From: Psychrobacter sp. P11F6
Lineage (GTDB): Bacteria; Pseudomonadota; Gammaproteobacteria; Pseudomonadales; Moraxellaceae
Assembly (NCBI RefSeq): GCF_001435295.1
Contig: NZ_CM003594.1
Coordinates: 2,232,001-2,296,000, forward strand
Length of the DNA: 64,000 nt
Direction of reading: 5' to 3'
Positions 3,808 to 11,896 of the stretch are shown here, one piece after another; the stretch's first letter is position 1; each line of letters opens with the position of its first letter. Under the pieces are notes generated by a model. It was not told the DNA's origin. It was given only the letters and a program-made list of their open reading frames with translations, and searched no databases. Made by a program: the position numbers and the translations under genes.

Positions 3808-5547
3808 TTAGTTGATGGGTTTTATCTTATGAAAAATGCTTCCTTTTAACTCATCAAACCGCAGCCCAAATTTCATCAGATACTTACGCAATCTGTCGCT
3901 ATCATTTGGATTTTTTAGCTTATCGCGTGAGTTGGCATACAGATATCGCCCAGCCGCTGCTTGGTTTTTATGACGTATACACACCTCAATCACATACGCC
4001 AGTTGCACCGCATCAAACGGATCAATAGTTGTCAGAATCTCTTCATCGAGATATTTTCTTAAAATATTATGGCTACCCTGCTTGATGGTTTCACTATCTA
4101 GAGTAGTATCGGGGCTATTTTTAGTCCTGACATTACCGCCATTTAAGCTATTAGAGCCGTTTGAACTGTCAGGTAATTCCCAAAGATAAGTTAACCTCTC
4201 AATCTCCGCTTGCACATCATCATTGCGAATCACTTTACTCTCAGCAAGTGTAGTCAAACGAATTATACTGGCGGTCAAATCACGAAAATTCCCCTGCCAT
4301 GTCGCATCCTGACTCATTGCAAAAGTTTCATAACGCTGCCTTGCTTCTGGCGTAAATCGATAGTGCTGCTGTTGCTCGTTACCCAAACGCGCTAGCTCAT
4401 AATCGATATTGGCAGGTAAATCTTCCAACCTATCTTTGAGTGATGGCAAAAAGAACGTCCACGTATTGAGACGCGCAAACAAATCCGCCCGAAACTCGCC
4501 ATTTGCGACTGCTTGGCGCAAGTCTTTATTGGTGCCTGCCATCAGCTGAAATGACACGCTAATCGGCGTATCACTACCGAGCGGATAAAAGCGTTGTTCC
4601 TCAAGTGCGGTCAATAGCATCGCTTGCTCATCAAGCCCAAGCTCGCCAATCTCGTCTAAGAATAACAAACCACCATCGGCTGATTTTAGCAGCCCGTCTC
4701 GGCTCGTTGCAGCTCCCGTAAATGCACCTTTTACATGACCGAATAACACACTCATGGCGGTATCACCACGCAGCGTGGCGCAGTTGACCTCGACGAATTG
4801 TTCAAGCGTGTTTTTGCCTTGCGTGCTGTTAGCTTTGGCTTTTTTGAGCGCGTAGATTTGGCCTGCCAATTGAGACTTGCCCGCCCCTGTTGCGCCCATC
4901 AGCAGTATGGGAGCAGTTGATCGAGTAGCGACTTTTTCGATATCGGAGATAAGCTTTTGATAAGCGGCGTTTTGGGTGACTAGATTGGCTTGCAAGGTTT
5001 GCCAATGTTGCTGTTTTTCCGCTTCAAAACGCTCACGTAAACCATCATAACGCGAGACATCTAGGTCAATCACTTGATAGCGACCTTGCGGATCAGCTTG
5101 GTCAGGTCTTGGGCAAGGTGATGTCTGAATCAAATCTGCGGGAATAAAGCCCGCCTCTACCAACAAGAACCAGCAAATCTGCGCCACGTGCGTACCCGTG
5201 GTCAGATGCAGCAAGTAATCGGTACTATCCTGAAAATCAAACCCTGTAGCAAAATCATACAGCTCAGCATAAACATCGGCAAAATCCCACGGACTGCTCA
5301 ACGCCACATGATGACCAATTATTTTAGTCTGAGGACTCACTTTTGCGACGTCATCAACTACTATTTTAAACAGCCGCTTATCTCGTTTACTGTATAAGAT
5401 ATGCAGCTCATCGACCAATAGCTCATCATGTATACCTAAGCTCACGGTTGGTCGCCATCGTTGCCAACGCTTGTCATTAAAGCCATTATCTAAGGTAGTG
5501 CCGAGGAAGCCGATGACGGCGGTTCTGTTATTTGGATCACTATTCAT
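3808..5547 (-). CDS. rtcR: Sigma-54-dependent activator of the RNA-repair operon, RtcR
   Basis: About 579 residues. The N-terminal region begins TAVIGFLGTTLDNGF, typical of the RtcR regulatory domain, which belongs to the CARF group of ligand sensors. A central AAA+ domain has Walker A GATGAGKS, the sigma-54 contact loop GAFTGA and Walker B GGLLFLDEIGEL. A C-terminal DNA-binding domain ends the protein. It activates sigma-54 RNA polymerase at the divergent rtcB promoter when its sensor domain is engaged, by RNA-derived ligands according to work on the family. I chose the ATG at 5547; a GTG five codons upstream is possible. The next gene is rtcB, 254 bp away in the opposite direction. Confidence 0.95.
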   Translation of the reverse strand: MNSDPNNRTAVIGFLGTTLDNGFNDKRWQRWRPTVSLGIHDELLVDELHILYSKRDKRLFKIVVDDVAKVSPQTKIIGHHVALSSPWDFADVYAELYDFATGFDFQDSTDYLLHLTTGTHVAQICWFLLVEAGFIPADLIQTSPCPRPDQADPQGRYQVIDLDVSRYDGLRERFEAEKQQHWQTLQANLVTQNAAYQKLISDIEKVATRSTAPILLMGATGAGKSQLAGQIYALKKAKANSTQGKNTLEQFVEVNCATLRGDTAMSVLFGHVKGAFTGAATSRDGLLKSADGGLLFLDEIGELGLDEQAMLLTALEEQRFYPLGSDTPISVSFQLMAGTNKDLRQAVANGEFRADLFARLNTWTFFLPSLKDRLEDLPANIDYELARLGNEQQQHYRFTPEARQRYETFAMSQDATWQGNFRDLTASIIRLTTLAESKVIRNDDVQAEIERLTYLWELPDSSNGSNSLNGGNVRTKNSPDTTLDSETIKQGSHNILRKYLDEEILTTIDPFDAVQLAYVIEVCIRHKNQAAAGRYLYANSRDKLKNPNDSDRLRKYLMKFGLRFDELKGSIFHKIKPIN

Positions 5548-5724
5548 AATATTACTTATCACTGAGTATCATTAGTAAATAATATATTATTTTCTATTCA
5601 GTTAGATATATTTCTATATATTTTTAACTCATGATTAAATAAATATTTTTATTCGAAAAAAATACAAAAATTAAACCATTTACTATCAATTACTTATGAT
5701 TAAATACTGAATATCTTAAAAACT

Positions 5725-5740
5725 TGGCATGTCCTTAGCA
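5725..5740 (+). promoter_or_regulatory. Sigma-54 (-24/-12) promoter of the rtc operon
   Basis: The bases TGGCATGTCCTTAGCA fit the sigma-54 consensus TGGCACGNNNNTTGCW with two mismatches. The invariant GG (5726-5727) and GC (5738-5739) are exactly 12 bases apart. It lies 61 bp before the rtcB start and points toward it, next to the gene for a sigma-54 activator. No confident activator-binding palindrome was identified in the AT-rich DNA between it and rtcR. Confidence 0.88.
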
Positions 5741-5801
5741 TTATATAAAGTAAGAATTATCTTCAATAATAAACAAACTTTGCAACGCTAAGGAATACAA
5801 C

Positions 5802-7034
5802 ATGCAACCAACCACTCATAACATCATTCAAGACGGTGGAACGCCTATCAGACTTTGGACCAAGGGCGTGCCTGTCGATCCAAAAGCACACGATCAATTG
5901 ATCAAAGCATCAAAAATGCCGTTTGTATATAAATGGCTTGCAGTGATGCCCGATGTGCATGTCGGTATTGGCGCGACTATCGGTACGGTATTGCCAACCA
6001 AAGAAGCGATTATTCCGGCTGCCGTTGGCGTCGATATTGGCTGCGGAATGATGGCAGTACAAACCACCCTAACCGCGAACGATTTGCCTGATAGCTTGCT
6101 TGGTCTGCGTACCGAGCTTGAAAAAGCCATTCCGCATGGTCGTAGTAAAACGCGTGGTCGCGGATCACGCCGTGATGTCGGCGCGTGGGCAAACCCTGAC
6201 GACACCGTAATGAACGGTTGGGGAACGCTGGTTGATGACTTTAATTATCTAACCCAAAAGCACCCTAAACTTAAAAATACCAATAACCTTAACCATTTGG
6301 GTACGCTGGGTACGGGTAACCATTTCGTCGAGGTGTGCCTTGATGAAACCAACCAAGTTTGGATCATGCTGCACTCAGGCTCACGCGGTGTGGGTAATGC
6401 CATTGGTCGCTACTTTATTGAGCTGGCACGTGAGGACATGCGCAAGTGGTTTATCAACTTGCCAGATAAAGATTTGGCTTACTTTGCCGAAGGTACAGAA
6501 CATTTCGATGACTATTGGTTTGCGGTTGGCTGGGCGCAGCGTTTTGCCTTTAAAAACCGCGAAATTATGATGGAAAAAGCCATCAAAGCACTACGCTACA
6601 TCATACCTAAGCCCTTTGATGCTGCCGTAAAAGCGGTGAACTGTCATCACAACTATGTGGCTAAAGAAGAGCACTATGGTGAAGAAGTATTTGTGACCCG
6701 CAAAGGCGCAGTACGTGCCCGCGTTGGCGAGTACGGAATTATTCCGGGGTCGATGGGTGCCAAATCATTCATCGTGCGCGGTAAAGGAAACGAAGAGTCG
6801 TTTTGCTCTTGCTCGCATGGTGCAGGTCGTATCATGTCACGTACTGAGGCCAAAAAAGTATTTACAGTTGCCGATCAAATTGCGCAGACCGAGGGCGTAG
6901 AATGTCGAAAAGACGCGGATGTAATTGATGAGATTCCAGCGGCTTATAAAAATATTGATGACGTGATGCAAGCGCAAAGTGATTTGGTAGAAGTGGTACA
7001 TACGCTGCGTCAGGTGGTTTGTGTTAAAGGATAG
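5802..7034 (+). CDS. rtcB: RNA-splicing ligase RtcB
   Basis: A 410-residue tRNA/RNA ligase that joins 2',3'-cyclic-phosphate or 3'-phosphate ends to 5'-OH ends using GTP and Mn2+. Visible active-site pieces are VGVDIGCGMMA (metal-binding Asp and Cys), GTGNHFVEV, the HSGSRGVG loop, NCHHNYV, and the C-terminal SHGAGRIMSR, whose His is the guanylylated residue. Length is typical of the bacterial family. It is the first gene after the sigma-54 promoter, with AAGGA before the ATG, and is followed after 39 bp by the HEPN-protein gene. Confidence 0.96.
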   Translation: MQPTTHNIIQDGGTPIRLWTKGVPVDPKAHDQLIKASKMPFVYKWLAVMPDVHVGIGATIGTVLPTKEAIIPAAVGVDIGCGMMAVQTTLTANDLPDSLLGLRTELEKAIPHGRSKTRGRGSRRDVGAWANPDDTVMNGWGTLVDDFNYLTQKHPKLKNTNNLNHLGTLGTGNHFVEVCLDETNQVWIMLHSGSRGVGNAIGRYFIELAREDMRKWFINLPDKDLAYFAEGTEHFDDYWFAVGWAQRFAFKNREIMMEKAIKALRYIIPKPFDAAVKAVNCHHNYVAKEEHYGEEVFVTRKGAVRARVGEYGIIPGSMGAKSFIVRGKGNEESFCSCSHGAGRIMSRTEAKKVFTVADQIAQTEGVECRKDADVIDEIPAAYKNIDDVMQAQSDLVEVVHTLRQVVCVKG

Positions 7035-7073
7035 GTAGGAACTATTATTTTCTAATATCACAAGGATAAAATT

Positions 7074-8705
7074 ATGGAAGATTCCATCCAGTCTAAGCTT
7101 ATATATACAAACTTGCAGTTAGATAATGCATCTGAAATGATTAATAAAGGGCAGTTTGAACAAAGCTATAAGTTATGCTTATATTTAAAGGAGCTTCTAG
7201 AAAAAGTCCATGATCTCAGTGACCCTAGTTTTTCCTACGCATTTTTTAGACTTGCTGGACTATTTGTTGATTTAGGTAATAGGGATTCCAACCTAGAGTC
7301 TTCTCAAATCGGATTGGAAATAATGGAGTCTAATAGCTTTGAACACTGTTTAACTCGTGATAGTTATTACTACTGCTTAGCAAACGCTAAAGGTAATTTG
7401 ACTCAAAGTGATTCCAATAACTACTGTAAAACTGATGTCAGTAAGATAGAAAGATTTTCAGAAGTAGGGTCATTACTTCTCAAAGCAACTATGATTCGTA
7501 GAAAAAATAAAGATGTTTTGTCGCCACAGGTTATGGTTAATATGGGAATAAATCTATATCTGCAGTATAGATTTTCAGAAGCATTAAGTTTGTTTGACAA
7601 GGTCAATTGTATGGGATTAGACATTCCAGAATCTTGGGTAAATCGCAGTGAATGTTTAGCACTATTAAATCAGATTACAGAAGTATTCTCGATCCAACAA
7701 TATAAAGAGGTAGCTCAAGGCTATTATCATGCTAGTGTTTCGAGTGAATTTCCTTATGACTGGCAAAATAACTTTTTCAATAAGGCTAAACACACGGAAA
7801 AAGAGATCGAAGATTATTGTTTGGATTTGGGTATAGATATAGAAGATGACAAACATTTAGACGAACAGGAATATCAATCTTTGTCAGAATATCGTAGATG
7901 GTGTTTAGATAATTTTTTAAGCCTTAGTGAACATGGTTTATATTGTAAGTGTCATGGAAGTGCGCGTGATAACTTGAATATCCCAGTGCCCACTAGAGCA
8001 GTTGCTGGAGATTTTATATTACCGATGGAGAAGGTATTAAATAGGCTTAAATCCGAATTTGGACTTGCTAGATTAATGTTGTATGAACATCAATCTGATA
8101 AGAAAGATAACGATATTGACGATGATGCTTGCTATGCGGAGCTATATGACAACGAGCTGCTAGGAACAAACATCGAAAAGCTTCGTACTGCTTTTCGAAT
8201 TTGCTTTGGTATACTAGATAAGATAGGTAATGCCATTGCTTTGTTGTTTGATTTACAACTTAAAACCAATAAAGGTAAAGTCAGGCCCTCATATTTTCAT
8301 ACCTTTTGGGAACTTGAAAACGAAGACAGACGTCAAAAGTTCGAAGCTTATGATAATGAAGGTTTGATTGGTTTATATAGCATAGCTTGTGATTTAAATC
8401 ACAAGCTAGAAGGTGAGCTTAGTTTTTACAAGCAGTGGCGAAATGCCTTGGAGCATAGTTTTGTATTTGTTTATGAGAATGAAAAACCTGAAGATATTGA
8501 AACCTCATTAGCCTATTATGAAGAACCAGTTTTTATTTCAGAGTCCGAATTTGTTGAGAGCGCCGAGCATGTCCTGCAATTGACACGTTCAGCCATTTTT
8601 TCCTTCGTCTTTGCAGTTAGGATCAAAGCCGAGAAGGAAGCTCTTAACAATATCCCTGATATTTTAATTCAAAATAAGTTTCTTGAACAAAAAAAATATA
8701 CTTAG
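7074..8705 (+). CDS. LA2681-like HEPN-domain protein in the rtc operon
   Basis: 543 residues. The N-terminal ~250 residues are helical and look like degenerate tetratricopeptide repeats (NKGQFEQSYKLCLYLKELLEK; YRFSEALSLFDKVNC). A middle segment has YRRW near 273-276. The C-terminal ~170 residues look like a HEPN fold with KQWRNALEHSF, an Rx4H motif at Arg456-His461. That RNxxEH pattern is the ribonuclease signature of active HEPN proteins and matches my memory of the LA2681-like HEPN family. No signal peptide or membrane segment is seen. AAGGATAAA precedes the ATG, which lies 39 bp after rtcB; rtcA follows 77 bp after the stop, so co-transcription is likely. The gene is visibly richer in AT than rtcB or rtcA, which suggests later acquisition. 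RNase activity is inferred from the motif. Confidence 0.75.
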   Translation: MEDSIQSKLIYTNLQLDNASEMINKGQFEQSYKLCLYLKELLEKVHDLSDPSFSYAFFRLAGLFVDLGNRDSNLESSQIGLEIMESNSFEHCLTRDSYYYCLANAKGNLTQSDSNNYCKTDVSKIERFSEVGSLLLKATMIRRKNKDVLSPQVMVNMGINLYLQYRFSEALSLFDKVNCMGLDIPESWVNRSECLALLNQITEVFSIQQYKEVAQGYYHASVSSEFPYDWQNNFFNKAKHTEKEIEDYCLDLGIDIEDDKHLDEQEYQSLSEYRRWCLDNFLSLSEHGLYCKCHGSARDNLNIPVPTRAVAGDFILPMEKVLNRLKSEFGLARLMLYEHQSDKKDNDIDDDACYAELYDNELLGTNIEKLRTAFRICFGILDKIGNAIALLFDLQLKTNKGKVRPSYFHTFWELENEDRRQKFEAYDNEGLIGLYSIACDLNHKLEGELSFYKQWRNALEHSFVFVYENEKPEDIETSLAYYEEPVFISESEFVESAEHVLQLTRSAIFSFVFAVRIKAEKEALNNIPDILIQNKFLEQKKYT

Positions 8706-8731
8706 AAAATGAAGAATAAGAGAGTACCAAA

Positions 8732-8767
8732 ATGAAGCTCGCAGAGGCCCTACTCATTTGCCAATAA
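8732..8767 (+). pseudogene. Possible vestige of a DIP1984-like gene (11-codon ORF)
   Basis: Between the HEPN gene and rtcA, an ATG preceded by AGAGAGTACCAAA opens an 11-codon frame reading MKLAEALLICQ before TAA. MKLAEALL closely resembles, from memory, the start of the small DIP1984/septicolysin-like family (typically MKLAEALI followed by a charged helix), members of which I recall near rtcB genes. This may be the 5' scar of such a gene left by a deletion. The match is only eight residues, so chance or a leader peptide for rtcA is possible. Confidence 0.35.
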
Positions 8768-8782
8768 AGATAATAAATACTC

Positions 8783-9886
8783 ATGACTAAAACAAAACCA
8801 AAAACTCTAAAAATCGACGGCAGTACAGGCGAAGGCGGTGGACAAATTATCCGTACTGCATTGTCTTTATCCATGCTCACAGGCACACCAATCGAGATCA
8901 CCAATATTCGCGCTGGGCGAACCAAATCAGGATTGATGCGTCAGCACTTGATGTGTGTACAAGCCTCGCAGCAAATATCAAATGCCACCGTGACAGGTGC
9001 AGTTTTGGGCAGTATGGCGTTCACCTTTACGCCAAGCACAGTGAAATCGGGCGATTATAATTTTGATATTGGCTCAGCAGGCAGCACCAGTTTGGTGCTA
9101 CAAACGCTTTTACCCACCCTGCTTTTTGCCAATACTGGTTCAGCATCACCATCTACCGTGACTATCAAAGGTGGTACGCACAATCCACTCGCGCCAACCA
9201 CGGACTTTTTGCAGCAAGCGTTCGTCCCTGCATTAGCGAAATTGGGTATGCACATGGATATCGAGTGTGTACAAGCAGGGTTTGCGCCTATTGGTGGCGG
9301 CATGATTAAAGCGACGATAACGCCATTTATGCGCCATGCAAGCGCTTCACAATTTAACCTGACTAAACGCGGTAAGCTTATCGGTATAGAGCTGGTCGCG
9401 AGCGTGCTCAATCTAGAGTACGACATTTGCAAACGTGAGCTTGCCAGCGCAAAAGCATCATTGGTCGAATCGGGAATTGATGAAACGCTGATAACCACTC
9501 ATAGTCATAAATTGCAAGGTATAGGTGAAGGCAATAGCTGCTATGCACAAGTCACTCATGAGGTTTCTGACACCCAAAATCATGAAGAATATCACGCCGA
9601 GGTGTTCACTTTACTAGGAGAAAAACGCAGCTCAGCGGAAAAGATAGGTTGTCGTTTATCAGGCTTAGTCAAACGTTATGTATTTAACACCGACTCACTG
9701 GTCGATGAATACTTAACCGATCAATTACTCTTACCGTTGGCTTTAGCAGGCGGTGGCGAGTTTACCGCGCGTGTTGTTAGTAAGCACACTGAAACCCAAG
9801 CATGGCTCATTCAGCAATTTTTGCCCGTTGAGATTAAGCTTAAAGTAATCGATGAGCAGAAAACTTTGGTACAAGTTATCTGTTAA
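8783..9886 (+). CDS. rtcA: RNA 3'-terminal phosphate cyclase
   Basis: 367 residues. The enzyme converts RNA 3'-phosphates to 2',3'-cyclic phosphates through a covalent His-AMP intermediate, supplying ends that RtcB can ligate. The N-terminus IDGSTGEGGGQIIRTALSLSMLTGTPIEITNIRAGR is diagnostic, as are the IRGGTHN-like strand (IKGGTHNPLAPTTDFL) and the C-terminal LALAGGGEFTARVVSKHTETQ, which contains the likely nucleotidylated His. It is about 30 residues longer than the E. coli enzyme. It is the last gene of the rtc operon and shows only a weak ribosome-binding site. Confidence 0.95.
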   Translation: MTKTKPKTLKIDGSTGEGGGQIIRTALSLSMLTGTPIEITNIRAGRTKSGLMRQHLMCVQASQQISNATVTGAVLGSMAFTFTPSTVKSGDYNFDIGSAGSTSLVLQTLLPTLLFANTGSASPSTVTIKGGTHNPLAPTTDFLQQAFVPALAKLGMHMDIECVQAGFAPIGGGMIKATITPFMRHASASQFNLTKRGKLIGIELVASVLNLEYDICKRELASAKASLVESGIDETLITTHSHKLQGIGEGNSCYAQVTHEVSDTQNHEEYHAEVFTLLGEKRSSAEKIGCRLSGLVKRYVFNTDSLVDEYLTDQLLLPLALAGGGEFTARVVSKHTETQAWLIQQFLPVEIKLKVIDEQKTLVQVIC

Positions 9887-10093
9887 AATCACGCCACTAG
9901 CAACATCAACAGTAGCACTCTGTTACCCAATTACTGCTATGCAGTGATATCATATGTGTATGATGTAGGCGATAAATCTGAGCGCTTTGTCAGTGTCTAA
10001 CAATAATGGTCATAAGAGGGTGGTTTTTACCCTACTCTCTCTTTGAATCATTGTCACCTTTTTAATATTTATGTATTACTGTTGAGTGTAGCC

Positions 10094-11896
10094 ATGCCCC
10101 AATCTCGTACCAATCTAAATCCTGAACCTAAAACCAACTCTCCGTATTTGGTCGGCTTATTGCTGCGCTATAGCACCTTTGGCGCTGCTATATTAATATT
10201 TTTAGCAGGTCTACTATTGCTAAATTGGTGGTTAATTATTCTCGGTGGGTTTGGGGTATGCTTGGGGATTTATGACGTCATACAATCAAAGCATGCTATT
10301 TTGAAAAACTATCCAGTTGCCGGACATATTCGTTATGTGCTTGAAGATTTTCGTCCTGAAATTCGTCAATATTTACTAGAAAATGACAAAGAGCAAGTAC
10401 CGTTTTCACGCCAGCAGCGGGCGCTAATTTACCAACGTGCTAAGAATGTCAGTGACACTAACGCCTTTGGTACGCTAGATAATTTATACACCAATGGTAA
10501 AGAATGGTTTTTACAATCAGCGATTAGCCAACCTCTAGAAAACAAAGATTTTCGTATTATGGTTGGCGGTGAGCGGTGTCAGCAGCCGCATGATATGTCG
10601 GTATTTAATATCTCGGCGATGAGCTTTGGCAGCTTATCAGCTAACGCGATTATGGCGCTCAATCAAGGCGCAAAAATGGGCGGCTTTACTCATGATACGG
10701 GTGAAGGGGCTATCAGCCCTTATCATCGCAAGTTCGGTGGTGATTTGATTTGGGAGCTAGGTACAGGGTATTTTGGTTGCCGTGATGATAGTGGCAATTT
10801 TGACCCGCAGTCTTTTGCCGAAAAAGCGGTTGATCCGCAAGTAAAAATGATTGAAATCAAATTATCCCAAGGGGCAAAACCTGGTAAAGGTGGCGTGCTA
10901 CCCGCGGAGAAAATCACCCAAGAAATCGCTAATACCCGTCAAGTACCGACAGGTCAAGATTGTGTGTCGCCCTCGTCGCATACAGCCTTTAGCACCCCGC
11001 GAGAATTGGTGGCTTTTTGGCAACAACTGCGTGAGTTGTCAGGCGGCAAACCTGTGGGCTTCAAACTTTGTGTTGGTCAGCCTTGGCAGTTTATGGCGAT
11101 TGTGAAAGCCATGATCGAAACCGACAACTATCCTGATTTCATCGTCATCGATGGCGCAGAAGGGGGTACTGGCGCGGCTCCTGTCGAATTTATGGACAAT
11201 GTCGGCATGCCGATGGTTGAAGGATTTTTATTAATACACAATACTTTAGTCGGCGCAGGCATTCGCGATAAGATCAAACTTGGCGTGAGCGGTAAAATCG
11301 TCTCTGGTTTCGATATTGCCCGTATGATTGCCTTGGGCGCAGACTGGTGTAATTCAGCGCGCGGCTTTATGTTTGCTGTTGGCTGTATTCAATCACGCTC
11401 GTGCCATACCAATACTTGCCCGACGGGCGTTGCCACCCAAGACCCGTATCGTCAAAAAGCGCTGGACGTCCCTAGCAAAGCTGAGCGCGTCGCAAGCTTC
11501 CATAAAAACACCCTGAAATCCTTAGCCAGTATCGTCGGTGCGGTCGGCTTACAACACCCAAGCCAATTACAACCGTATCATATCGCGCGCCGCCTCGATG
11601 ATGGGCAGATAAAACTATTATCGAAGTTCTTTTATTTTACAGATAAGGGAGCGCTACTCAATAATAGCGCCCGCGCAGATGTGTTTAATCAGATGTGGGT
11701 CATGGCGAACCCAGATAGCTTTTTAGCCAATGATGATGCCCTCATTGCTTATAATAAAGACTCACGGGATAAAGGTAGGGAAACCACCACATCGGTGGAA
11801 CAGAGCCTTGGCAACTTTGCAAGTATCACTGGCGGTGGGCAGTTAATCGGCAACGTCAACAATACTTTTCGCGATGTTCCACTTAACAATGATTGA
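10094..11896 (+). CDS. Membrane-anchored FMN-binding glutamate synthase family protein
   Basis: About 600 residues. One or two membrane segments lie near residues 15-60 (LLRYSTFGAAILIFLAGLLLLNWWLIILGGFGVCLG), followed by a domain like the FMN/TIM-barrel part of glutamate synthase: MSFGSLSANAIMALN, GAKPGKGGVLPAEKIT, DGAEGGTGAAP, KLGVSGKIVSGFDIARMIALGAD. The Cys cluster CIQSRSCHTNTCPTGVATQ would hold an iron-sulfur centre. No glutaminase domain or small-subunit gene is nearby, so it is one of the stand-alone GltB2-like oxidoreductases of unknown substrate. I preferred the ATG at 10094 over a TTG 17 codons upstream. Confidence 0.85.
   Translation: MPQSRTNLNPEPKTNSPYLVGLLLRYSTFGAAILIFLAGLLLLNWWLIILGGFGVCLGIYDVIQSKHAILKNYPVAGHIRYVLEDFRPEIRQYLLENDKEQVPFSRQQRALIYQRAKNVSDTNAFGTLDNLYTNGKEWFLQSAISQPLENKDFRIMVGGERCQQPHDMSVFNISAMSFGSLSANAIMALNQGAKMGGFTHDTGEGAISPYHRKFGGDLIWELGTGYFGCRDDSGNFDPQSFAEKAVDPQVKMIEIKLSQGAKPGKGGVLPAEKITQEIANTRQVPTGQDCVSPSSHTAFSTPRELVAFWQQLRELSGGKPVGFKLCVGQPWQFMAIVKAMIETDNYPDFIVIDGAEGGTGAAPVEFMDNVGMPMVEGFLLIHNTLVGAGIRDKIKLGVSGKIVSGFDIARMIALGADWCNSARGFMFAVGCIQSRSCHTNTCPTGVATQDPYRQKALDVPSKAERVASFHKNTLKSLASIVGAVGLQHPSQLQPYHIARRLDDGQIKLLSKFFYFTDKGALLNNSARADVFNQMWVMANPDSFLANDDALIAYNKDSRDKGRETTTSVEQSLGNFASITGGGQLIGNVNNTFRDVPLNND

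Follow-up and report, generated by a model that had tools for sequence, protein, structure and literature searches.

The window analysed here is a stretch of 64,000 nucleotides from Psychrobacter sp. P11F6 (contig NZ_CM003594.1, positions 2,232,001 to 2,296,000). It contains an RNA-repair (rtc) locus in which a gene for a 543-amino-acid protein, a predicted ribonuclease with a HEPN domain, lies between the ligase gene rtcB and the cyclase gene rtcA. The layout, with the open reading frame (ORF) of 543 residues ahead of rtcA, had been recognized in a reading made from the letters alone (the sequence-only reading) and is borne out by coordinates and Pfam families, with rtcR divergent from rtcB (Table 1). 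The CARF-type sigma-54 activator named in that reading is an RtcR, whose sensor domain is described as a divergent CARF domain (PMC4012209), and a sigma-54-like site precedes rtcB. The gene behind rtcB starts after 39 bases and is indeed AT-richer than its neighbour (34–35% GC versus 47–50% in rtcB); the suggestion that it is a later addition is likewise supported. None of the four window genes that were profiled with Pfam matches an McrBC-like GTPase, and no nucleotidyltransferase or other antitoxin adjoins the HEPN gene: the space between rtcB and rtcA holds this single gene and the decayed start of a DUF6847 gene.

Table 1. Features of the rtc locus of Psychrobacter sp. P11F6, numbered from the first letter of the window
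Feature	Position	Strand	Remarks
rtcR, sigma-54 activator with RtcR (CARF-like) sensor domain	3808..5562	-	Divergent from rtcB; Pfam RtcR E 6.1e-70, Sigma54_activat E 2.5e-48
Sigma-54-like -24/-12 site TGGCATGTCCTTAGCA	5725..5740	+	Ends 61 bases 5' of rtcB
rtcB, RNA ligase	5802..7034	+	Pfam RtcB E 6.8e-131
Cargo gene, 543 amino acids, predicted ribonuclease	7074..8705	+	TPR-like N-terminal half, C-terminal HEPN_LA2681 domain
Cargo residues 1–252, TPR-like helical repeats, presumed sensor	7074..7829	+	Structural model, Foldseek, comparison with G500
Cargo residues 317–517, HEPN_LA2681 domain	8022..8624	+	Pfam E 1.5e-37
RNALEH, R456 to H461, Rx4H motif	8439..8456	+	R, E and H invariant in alignments of nine and seven proteins
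Remnant of DUF6847 (DIP1984) gene start, MKLAEALLICQ and stop	8732..8767	+	Intact gene at other loci starts alike
rtcA, RNA 3'-terminal phosphate cyclase	8783..9886	+	Pfam RTC E 2.5e-73

The HEPN protein of strain P11F6

The C-terminal HEPN-like domain of the sequence-only reading, which had pointed to the LA2681 type in particular, is recovered by the Pfam profile HEPN_LA2681 (PF18733) at 129.4 bits against a cut-off of 27. The same profile matches all nine proteins of an alignment that comprises the window protein, six relatives encoded on plasmids (three from Alphaproteobacteria and one each from Vibrio, Paenibacillus, and Cetobacterium), and two Psychrobacter alleles. The Rx4H motif proposed earlier is intact, and its residues R456, E460, and H461 are invariant among the window protein and its eight homologues (18–70% identity) as well as in a second alignment of seven proteins that has some members in common with the first. 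The matches support the view that the protein is a HEPN protein of the LA2681 type with an intact conserved motif and a predicted RNase. Membership in this family is ordinary, as the protein shares with other representatives the domain, the conserved Rx4H motif, and the fusion to TPR (PMC3710099); the main text of the paper describing the family does not mention RtcB.

The N-terminal half is modelled by AlphaFold2 as a series of helical hairpins (predicted local distance difference test (pLDDT), 76; predicted template modelling score (pTM), 0.80), whose best matches in the PDB by Foldseek are TPR proteins (E 4e-4). The TPR-like helices that had been read from the sequence therefore find support in the model and its structural matches but not in Pfam, whose TPR profile does not match the window protein itself. 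A sequence search of the PDB with the 543-residue protein gives a best E of 0.77. The two halves of the gene have diverged to very different degrees from the allele of genome G500: residues 251–543 are 80–100% identical (synonymous divergence (dS), 0.61; ratio of nonsynonymous to synonymous divergence (dN/dS), 0.085; 0.075 for the HEPN domain), whereas residues 1–250 are only 32–62% identical, with saturated silent sites. The predicted effector half of the gene is under purifying selection, and the TPR-like half, the presumed sensor, looks to have been replaced by recombination, because identity is low in residues 1–250 and high in residues 251–543.

It is improbable that the HEPN domain binds RNA without being catalytic and that the protein serves the repair machinery as a scaffold or regulator. 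Although some HEPN families are inactive (PMC3710099) and the RNase activity of the cargo protein is a prediction, the invariance of R, E, and H in all nine aligned proteins and the strong purifying selection on the HEPN half argue against such a role, as does the entry "Yes" for LA2681 in a column of the HEPN table where other families are marked "Mostly conserved" (PMC3710099).

The stretch between rtcB and rtcA in Moraxellaceae

Among 105 Psychrobacter genomes, 42 have an RtcA match, 40 an RtcR match, and 39 both. The loci in which rtcB and rtcA are contiguous number 75, of which 36 are from Psychrobacter (32 from the genus survey, the window, and loci L006, L007, and L009) and 39 from other Moraxellaceae. 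The 36 Psychrobacter loci omit the RtcA-bearing genomes with split contigs (G045, G008, and G001), short fragments (G014 and G021), or no operon-type rtcB (G470); the 39 remain from 40 loci read among the 49 RtcA-bearing genomes of the non-Psychrobacter family sample after removal of one without rtcB (L188). The genus g319 in this sample is probably Acinetobacter, because most of its loci that were read match the rtcB–rtcA stretch of A. baumannii at 79–97% DNA identity.

In both sets of loci, the content between rtcB and rtcA varies between species. The commonest order in Psychrobacter is rtcR, rtcB, cargo, a gene of 152 amino acids (DUF6847, matched with E 1.5e-47 in L077, or DIP1984 in NCBIfam), sometimes an AAA ATPase gene, and rtcA, and the same order is common among the 39 loci of other Moraxellaceae. 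The distance between rtcB and rtcA ranges from 0.8 to 6.7 kb in the 32 surveyed Psychrobacter loci (84 kb in total) and is at most 250 bases in 4 of the 39 others; two loci (G052 and G488) have no cargo ORF ahead of the DUF6847 gene. The bases just 5' of the DUF6847 start codon are near-identical behind different cargos in the window, L077, L087, L091, and L102, and differ in L110, L088, L095, and L107. Seven cargo families besides DUF6847 are common to Psychrobacter and other genera. These comparisons show that the stretch behaves, at the level of sequence, as an exchangeable cargo slot bounded by rtcB and by the DUF6847 gene next to rtcA. A sample of the class had suggested that the slot is confined to Psychrobacter, which the family survey overturned. 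The literature searched contains no prior description of it; an earlier mention in Burroughs and Aravind 2016 is possible.

Exchange is most evident in pairs of genomes whose cargo is more similar than its flanks. The DUF4209 cargos of G017 and G030 are 97.2% identical (rtcB, 80.5%; rtcA, 71.6%), and the LA2681 cargos of G500 and G466 are 98.4% identical (rtcB, 92.4%; rtcA, 82.9%), showing that slot cargo can be swapped independently of its flanks. Other pairs have no such excess (for example, a DUF4145 cargo with 73.7% identity next to rtcB with 83.5%). The slot of L087 (G004) also contains a second copy of the 3' end of rtcB in rtcB orientation (positions 6577–6678; residues 377–410, 94% identity), a possible scar of recombination.

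The DUF6847 gene is the most constant companion of rtcB and rtcA in the Moraxellaceae loci that were read and is intact in most slots other than that of the window. A function as antitoxin of the window HEPN protein is unlikely, because only a remnant of the gene is present in the window, L006–L010, G466, and G465, and none is found in G529 by tblastn. The slots of L087, L100, and L101 (G004, G492, and G491) encode several related, cysteine-containing proteins of up to 281 amino acids in what resembles an array of paralogues, and the two that were scanned have no Pfam match. Inspection by eye revealed a pair consisting of a PIN-type toxin and an AbrB-like antitoxin on the opposite strand within the slot of L099 (G464; positions 5123–5899) and a nucleotidyltransferase-like insert of 271 amino acids in L142. 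In four Psychrobacter loci (L105–L108, from G467, G022, G483, and G036), rtcB is present but rtcA, rtcR, and slot cargo are missing, and DUF6847 is retained only in G483. The genome of strain P11F6 contains a second RtcB-like gene (G000:C1:2862622-2863800; 56% identity), which is possibly of the RtcB2-PrfH type; similar genes are present in many Psychrobacter.

Predicted RNA cutters and anti-phage homologues among the cargo

Profile scans cover one representative of most cargo clusters, excluding the smallest cargos and several that are known from a single locus. Candidate HEPN genes occupy 22 of the 75 slots, 14 in Psychrobacter and 8 in other Moraxellaceae, and represent three Pfam families (LA2681, DUF4209, and DUF4145), the latter two of which have been placed among the HEPN families (PMC3710099). 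In Psychrobacter, LA2681 is present in seven slots (window, G053, G044, G058, G500, G466, and G465), DUF4209 in three (and in two more on split contigs), and DUF4145 in two, and two further slot proteins (G471 and G034) combine an R-N-x-x-x-H motif with weak HEPN matches. A protein of the PDC-S32 cluster in two additional Psychrobacter slots is a defence candidate whose HEPN nature is unproven (one member scanned). The eight candidates of other Moraxellaceae comprise one LA2681, one DUF4145, one weakly MAE_28990-like protein, and five members of a small family with the motif RN[WL]LKH; the member of this family that was scanned matches nothing in Pfam or PADLOC.

Homologues of defence genes are found in the same position. 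The DUF4145 protein in the slot of L184 (g319) aligns with PD-T7-4 along almost its entire length (E 1.5e-92), and that of L176 (g319) contains a homologue of PD-T4-7 (E 4e-33); both systems came out of a functional selection for anti-phage activity (PMC9519451). Their families differ from that of the window gene, except for the HEPN type (DUF4145) of the PD-T7-4-like protein. Psychrobacter slots add PADLOC matches to the defence candidates PDC-S39 (E 1.3e-164) and PDC-S32 (E 1.2e-81). The motif R-[NH]-x-[LIVAS]-x-H occurs in 8 of 28 cargo families with at least 120 amino acids but in only 2 of 279 background ORFs (Fisher, 7e-8; 7 of 27 and 6e-7 when the G470 family, from a locus with no rtcB, is excluded), in a test that ignores shared descent and uses a motif chosen after the cargo had been viewed. 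These counts show that slot cargo is enriched in proteins with a HEPN-type motif, predicted as such by sequence, and includes homologues of anti-phage genes. The idea that the remaining cargo encodes immunity proteins to RNase toxins was dropped, with only weak SUKH matches in one family (E 0.007–0.01). NCBIfam gave nothing convincing for ten cargo proteins except the DIP1984 label of the 152-residue gene.

The association with the slot differs among HEPN families. All eight PF18733 matches in Psychrobacter lie at the rtc locus, seven between rtcB and rtcA and one at the equivalent position where rtc genes are absent, and 5 of 15 DUF4209 matches are in the slot, which makes up an estimated 0.03% of the Psychrobacter sequence searched; DUF4145 is mostly located elsewhere, as only 2 of its 28 matches over the cut-off are in the slot. 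In the family sample, PF18733 occurs in 11 of 229 genomes: five Psychrobacter slots, G048, the slot of G529, and four genomes of g319. The protein of G529, a member of another genus, is 40% identical to the window protein, so the recurrence of the gene between rtcB and rtcA that the sequence-only reading had called for is documented. Plasmid records with an LA2681 match number eight. The contexts of six were read, and the remaining two, both from Vibrio, have match figures identical to those of H2. A search of phage records found no relative of the window cargo protein, and viral contigs yielded none by single-sequence search and four by alignment search. One of these (L149, positions 3959–5560) encodes an LA2681 HEPN protein that shares 42% identity with the window protein along its length; by eye, resolvase-like and tail-type genes adjoin it.

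Outside Moraxellaceae, the class survey covered 30 of 35 RtcA matches, one of which is the window. Among the other 29, eight have rtcB at most 1.5 kb upstream, and none of these eight pairs encloses a HEPN gene according to BLAST and ORF inspection (one insert of 0.77 kb is unassigned); for 20 of the remaining 21, no rtcB is found nearby (15 with about 6 kb of upstream sequence and 5 limited by contig ends). Because no HEPN gene is seen in these pairs from outside the family, the HEPN-bearing slot is so far known only from Moraxellaceae.

The distribution of the gene bears on the proposal that the locus is a dedicated circuit, in which one particular RNA would be cleaved by the HEPN protein, prepared at its ends by RtcA, and re-joined by RtcB. 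A predicted cutter, a ligase, and a cyclase are indeed neighbours, and most HEPN domains are metal-independent endoribonucleases, enzymes that leave cyclic phosphate ends (PMC9879122). However, other genes occupy the position in most relatives, the HEPN gene occurs without rtc genes in G048 and outside the slot, and the eight rtcB–rtcA pairs from outside the family show none by BLAST and ORF inspection, so such a circuit has little chance of being the correct explanation. The role of a dedicated third rtc member, which the sequence-only reading had envisaged, is not supported: because the slot is variable and copies exist in G048 and away from rtc genes, the HEPN gene is rather one of many alternative cargos. 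The chemical coupling of cutting and repair is plausible but unproven.

RNA repair and defence at the slot

A TGGCA[CT]-N7-GC[AT] site is located 59 to 182 bases 5' of rtcB in each of 33 further Psychrobacter loci, all of the type with rtcA, and of the four loci without rtcA, three lack a sigma-54-like site and one has a degenerate version. Upstream of rtcB in other Moraxellaceae, a stricter first pattern is found in 4 of 39 loci and the looser TGGCA[CT] in 33, 32 of which end in GC[AT]. In A. baumannii exposed to tigecycline, rtcB and the gene directly downstream were both upregulated 252-fold (PMC7652931); judged by position alone, that gene would be slot cargo or DUF6847. No sigma-54-like promoter was seen next to rtcB in G529, which may be because this rtcR/rtcB/HEPN/rtcA locus (L229) also contains a Ro60-like gene (9174–10811) and three hits resembling the Y RNA YrlA (8234–8725; E 6.7e-11 to 4e-6, below the Rfam gathering score).

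The locus is probably one allele of an exchangeable cargo slot that constitutes an RtcR-controlled defence position within the RNA-repair operon of Moraxellaceae, and the 543-residue protein would be a TPR-sensed HEPN RNase that serves defence. RtcR would sense RNA ends produced by RNase attack or phage infection, and the cargo gene would be expressed from the RtcR/sigma-54 promoter, as it starts only 39 bases behind rtcB. The TPR part would then recognize a trigger, the HEPN part would cut RNA, and RtcB and RtcA would mend what is mendable. The HEPN reaction and the ligand of RtcR are known for the families (PMC9879122, PMC11090510); trigger, target RNA, and feedback are what we infer.

Several known systems resemble this arrangement. 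Type II CoCoNuTs with RtcR homologues also place an RtcR-like CARF regulator upstream of operons with a HEPN RNase and ancillary defence genes, and their authors propose a feed-forward loop in which the cyclic phosphate ends left by HEPN cleavage serve as input to the regulator (PMC11090510); unlike the McrBC-like core of CoCoNuTs, however, the slot belongs to the rtcBA repair operon itself and offers one exchangeable cargo position. The rsr-yrlBA-rtcBA operon of Salmonella, with dinJ-yafQ downstream, is likewise an RtcR/sigma-54 repair operon, and a ribonuclease toxin module is co-transcribed with it (PMC9879122, PMC7790460). Its toxin pair is located downstream, whereas the cargo of Moraxellaceae is inserted between rtcB and rtcA. 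Similar to the Salmonella layout, the relative G529 has genes for RtcR, a Ro60-like protein, and HEPN along with rtcB, rtcA, and three Y-RNA-like hits. The G51 islands of A. baumannii (rtcBA, rtcR, and an RNase Z gene) document the rtc genes as a strain-variable block (PMC3224125), and the order in L213 is rtcR, RNase Z, rtcB, hypothetical gene, DIP1984, and rtcA. The description of G51 concerns the presence or absence of the block (PMC3224125) and not the slot inside it. Together, slot and contents are a new form of the RtcR-linked defence theme.

Besides the post hoc choice of the motif, several findings weigh against a defence position. The sigma-54-like site of the window has two mismatches to TGGCACN5TTGCW and is, taken alone, no better than expected by chance. 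PADLOC has no match for the window cargo protein (P0001), and the C-terminal half, a weak model when predicted alone (pLDDT 67), has no match in the PDB at E ≤ 0.001, with HepT (5yep, 6m6w) and AbiV (9bj7) appearing only at E 1.3 to 3.2. Four HEPN candidates (C20, C33, M8, and M26) are based on the motif with weak or no profile matches, many cargo families (for example, C1, C6, C7, C8, C10, and C11) have no profile match, DUF7684 cargo has no link to defence, and the LA2681 gene of G465 is an interrupted copy. The functions of all slot proteins are predictions. Other results speak against a tight coupling of cargo and repair. In Salmonella, activation of RtcR does not require YafQ, and deletion of the Gifsy-1 HEPN gene STM14_3211 is without effect (PMC9879122). 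Rtc neighbours are lacking in all four LA2681 copies of g319 (three with both flanks and one, in G597, with the downstream flank only) and in the six plasmid and four viral-contig contexts. Genome G048, which has no match for RtcB, RtcA, or RtcR, encodes a HEPN protein of 517 amino acids (58% identity, motif intact) together with DUF6847, both immediately following what is left of the rtcB 3' end; because it keeps the HEPN gene, this gene can evidently outlive the repair enzymes.

Much of this evidence would fit a slot that is merely a hotspot, where an inducible promoter and recombining flanks favour the storage of cargo without any biochemical link to RtcB or RtcA. This alternative is quite possible, if short of probable. 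It accommodates the 20 of 28 cargo families without a HEPN-type motif, the absence of flanking rtc genes from the plasmid, viral, and g319 copies, and the persistence of HEPN and DUF6847 in G048, and antiviral genes are known also from hotspots in phages and satellites (PMC9122126). It is at odds with the finding that predicted RNA-targeting cargo is enriched next to RNA-repair genes in particular and with the concentration of all LA2681 and a third of the DUF4209 matches of Psychrobacter in a minute fraction of the sequence. The defence position remains our preferred explanation. We extend it only tentatively, and with some doubt, to an immune module gated by RNA damage, in which 2',3'-cyclic-phosphate ends would serve as the alarm, RtcR would co-induce ligase, cyclase, and a swappable, species-specific effector, HEPN effectors would amplify the signal by producing further ends of this kind, RtcB and RtcA would heal the RNA of the cell and let it survive the attack, and TPR halves would recombine to track new triggers.

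The purpose of the bacterial Rtc operon and the source of the cut RNA that it mends are a long-standing question. Because a good part of the exchangeable cargo consists of predicted RNA cutters and anti-virus genes, the slot suggests a link between immunity and RNA repair at this site. Its repeated occupation by unrelated predicted RNases and by homologues of anti-phage genes hints that the operon exists on account of conflict with phages or toxins. The cargo provides a list of defence candidates outside the classical defence islands, and the natural alleles supplied by the slot offer a means of testing what the operon is for.

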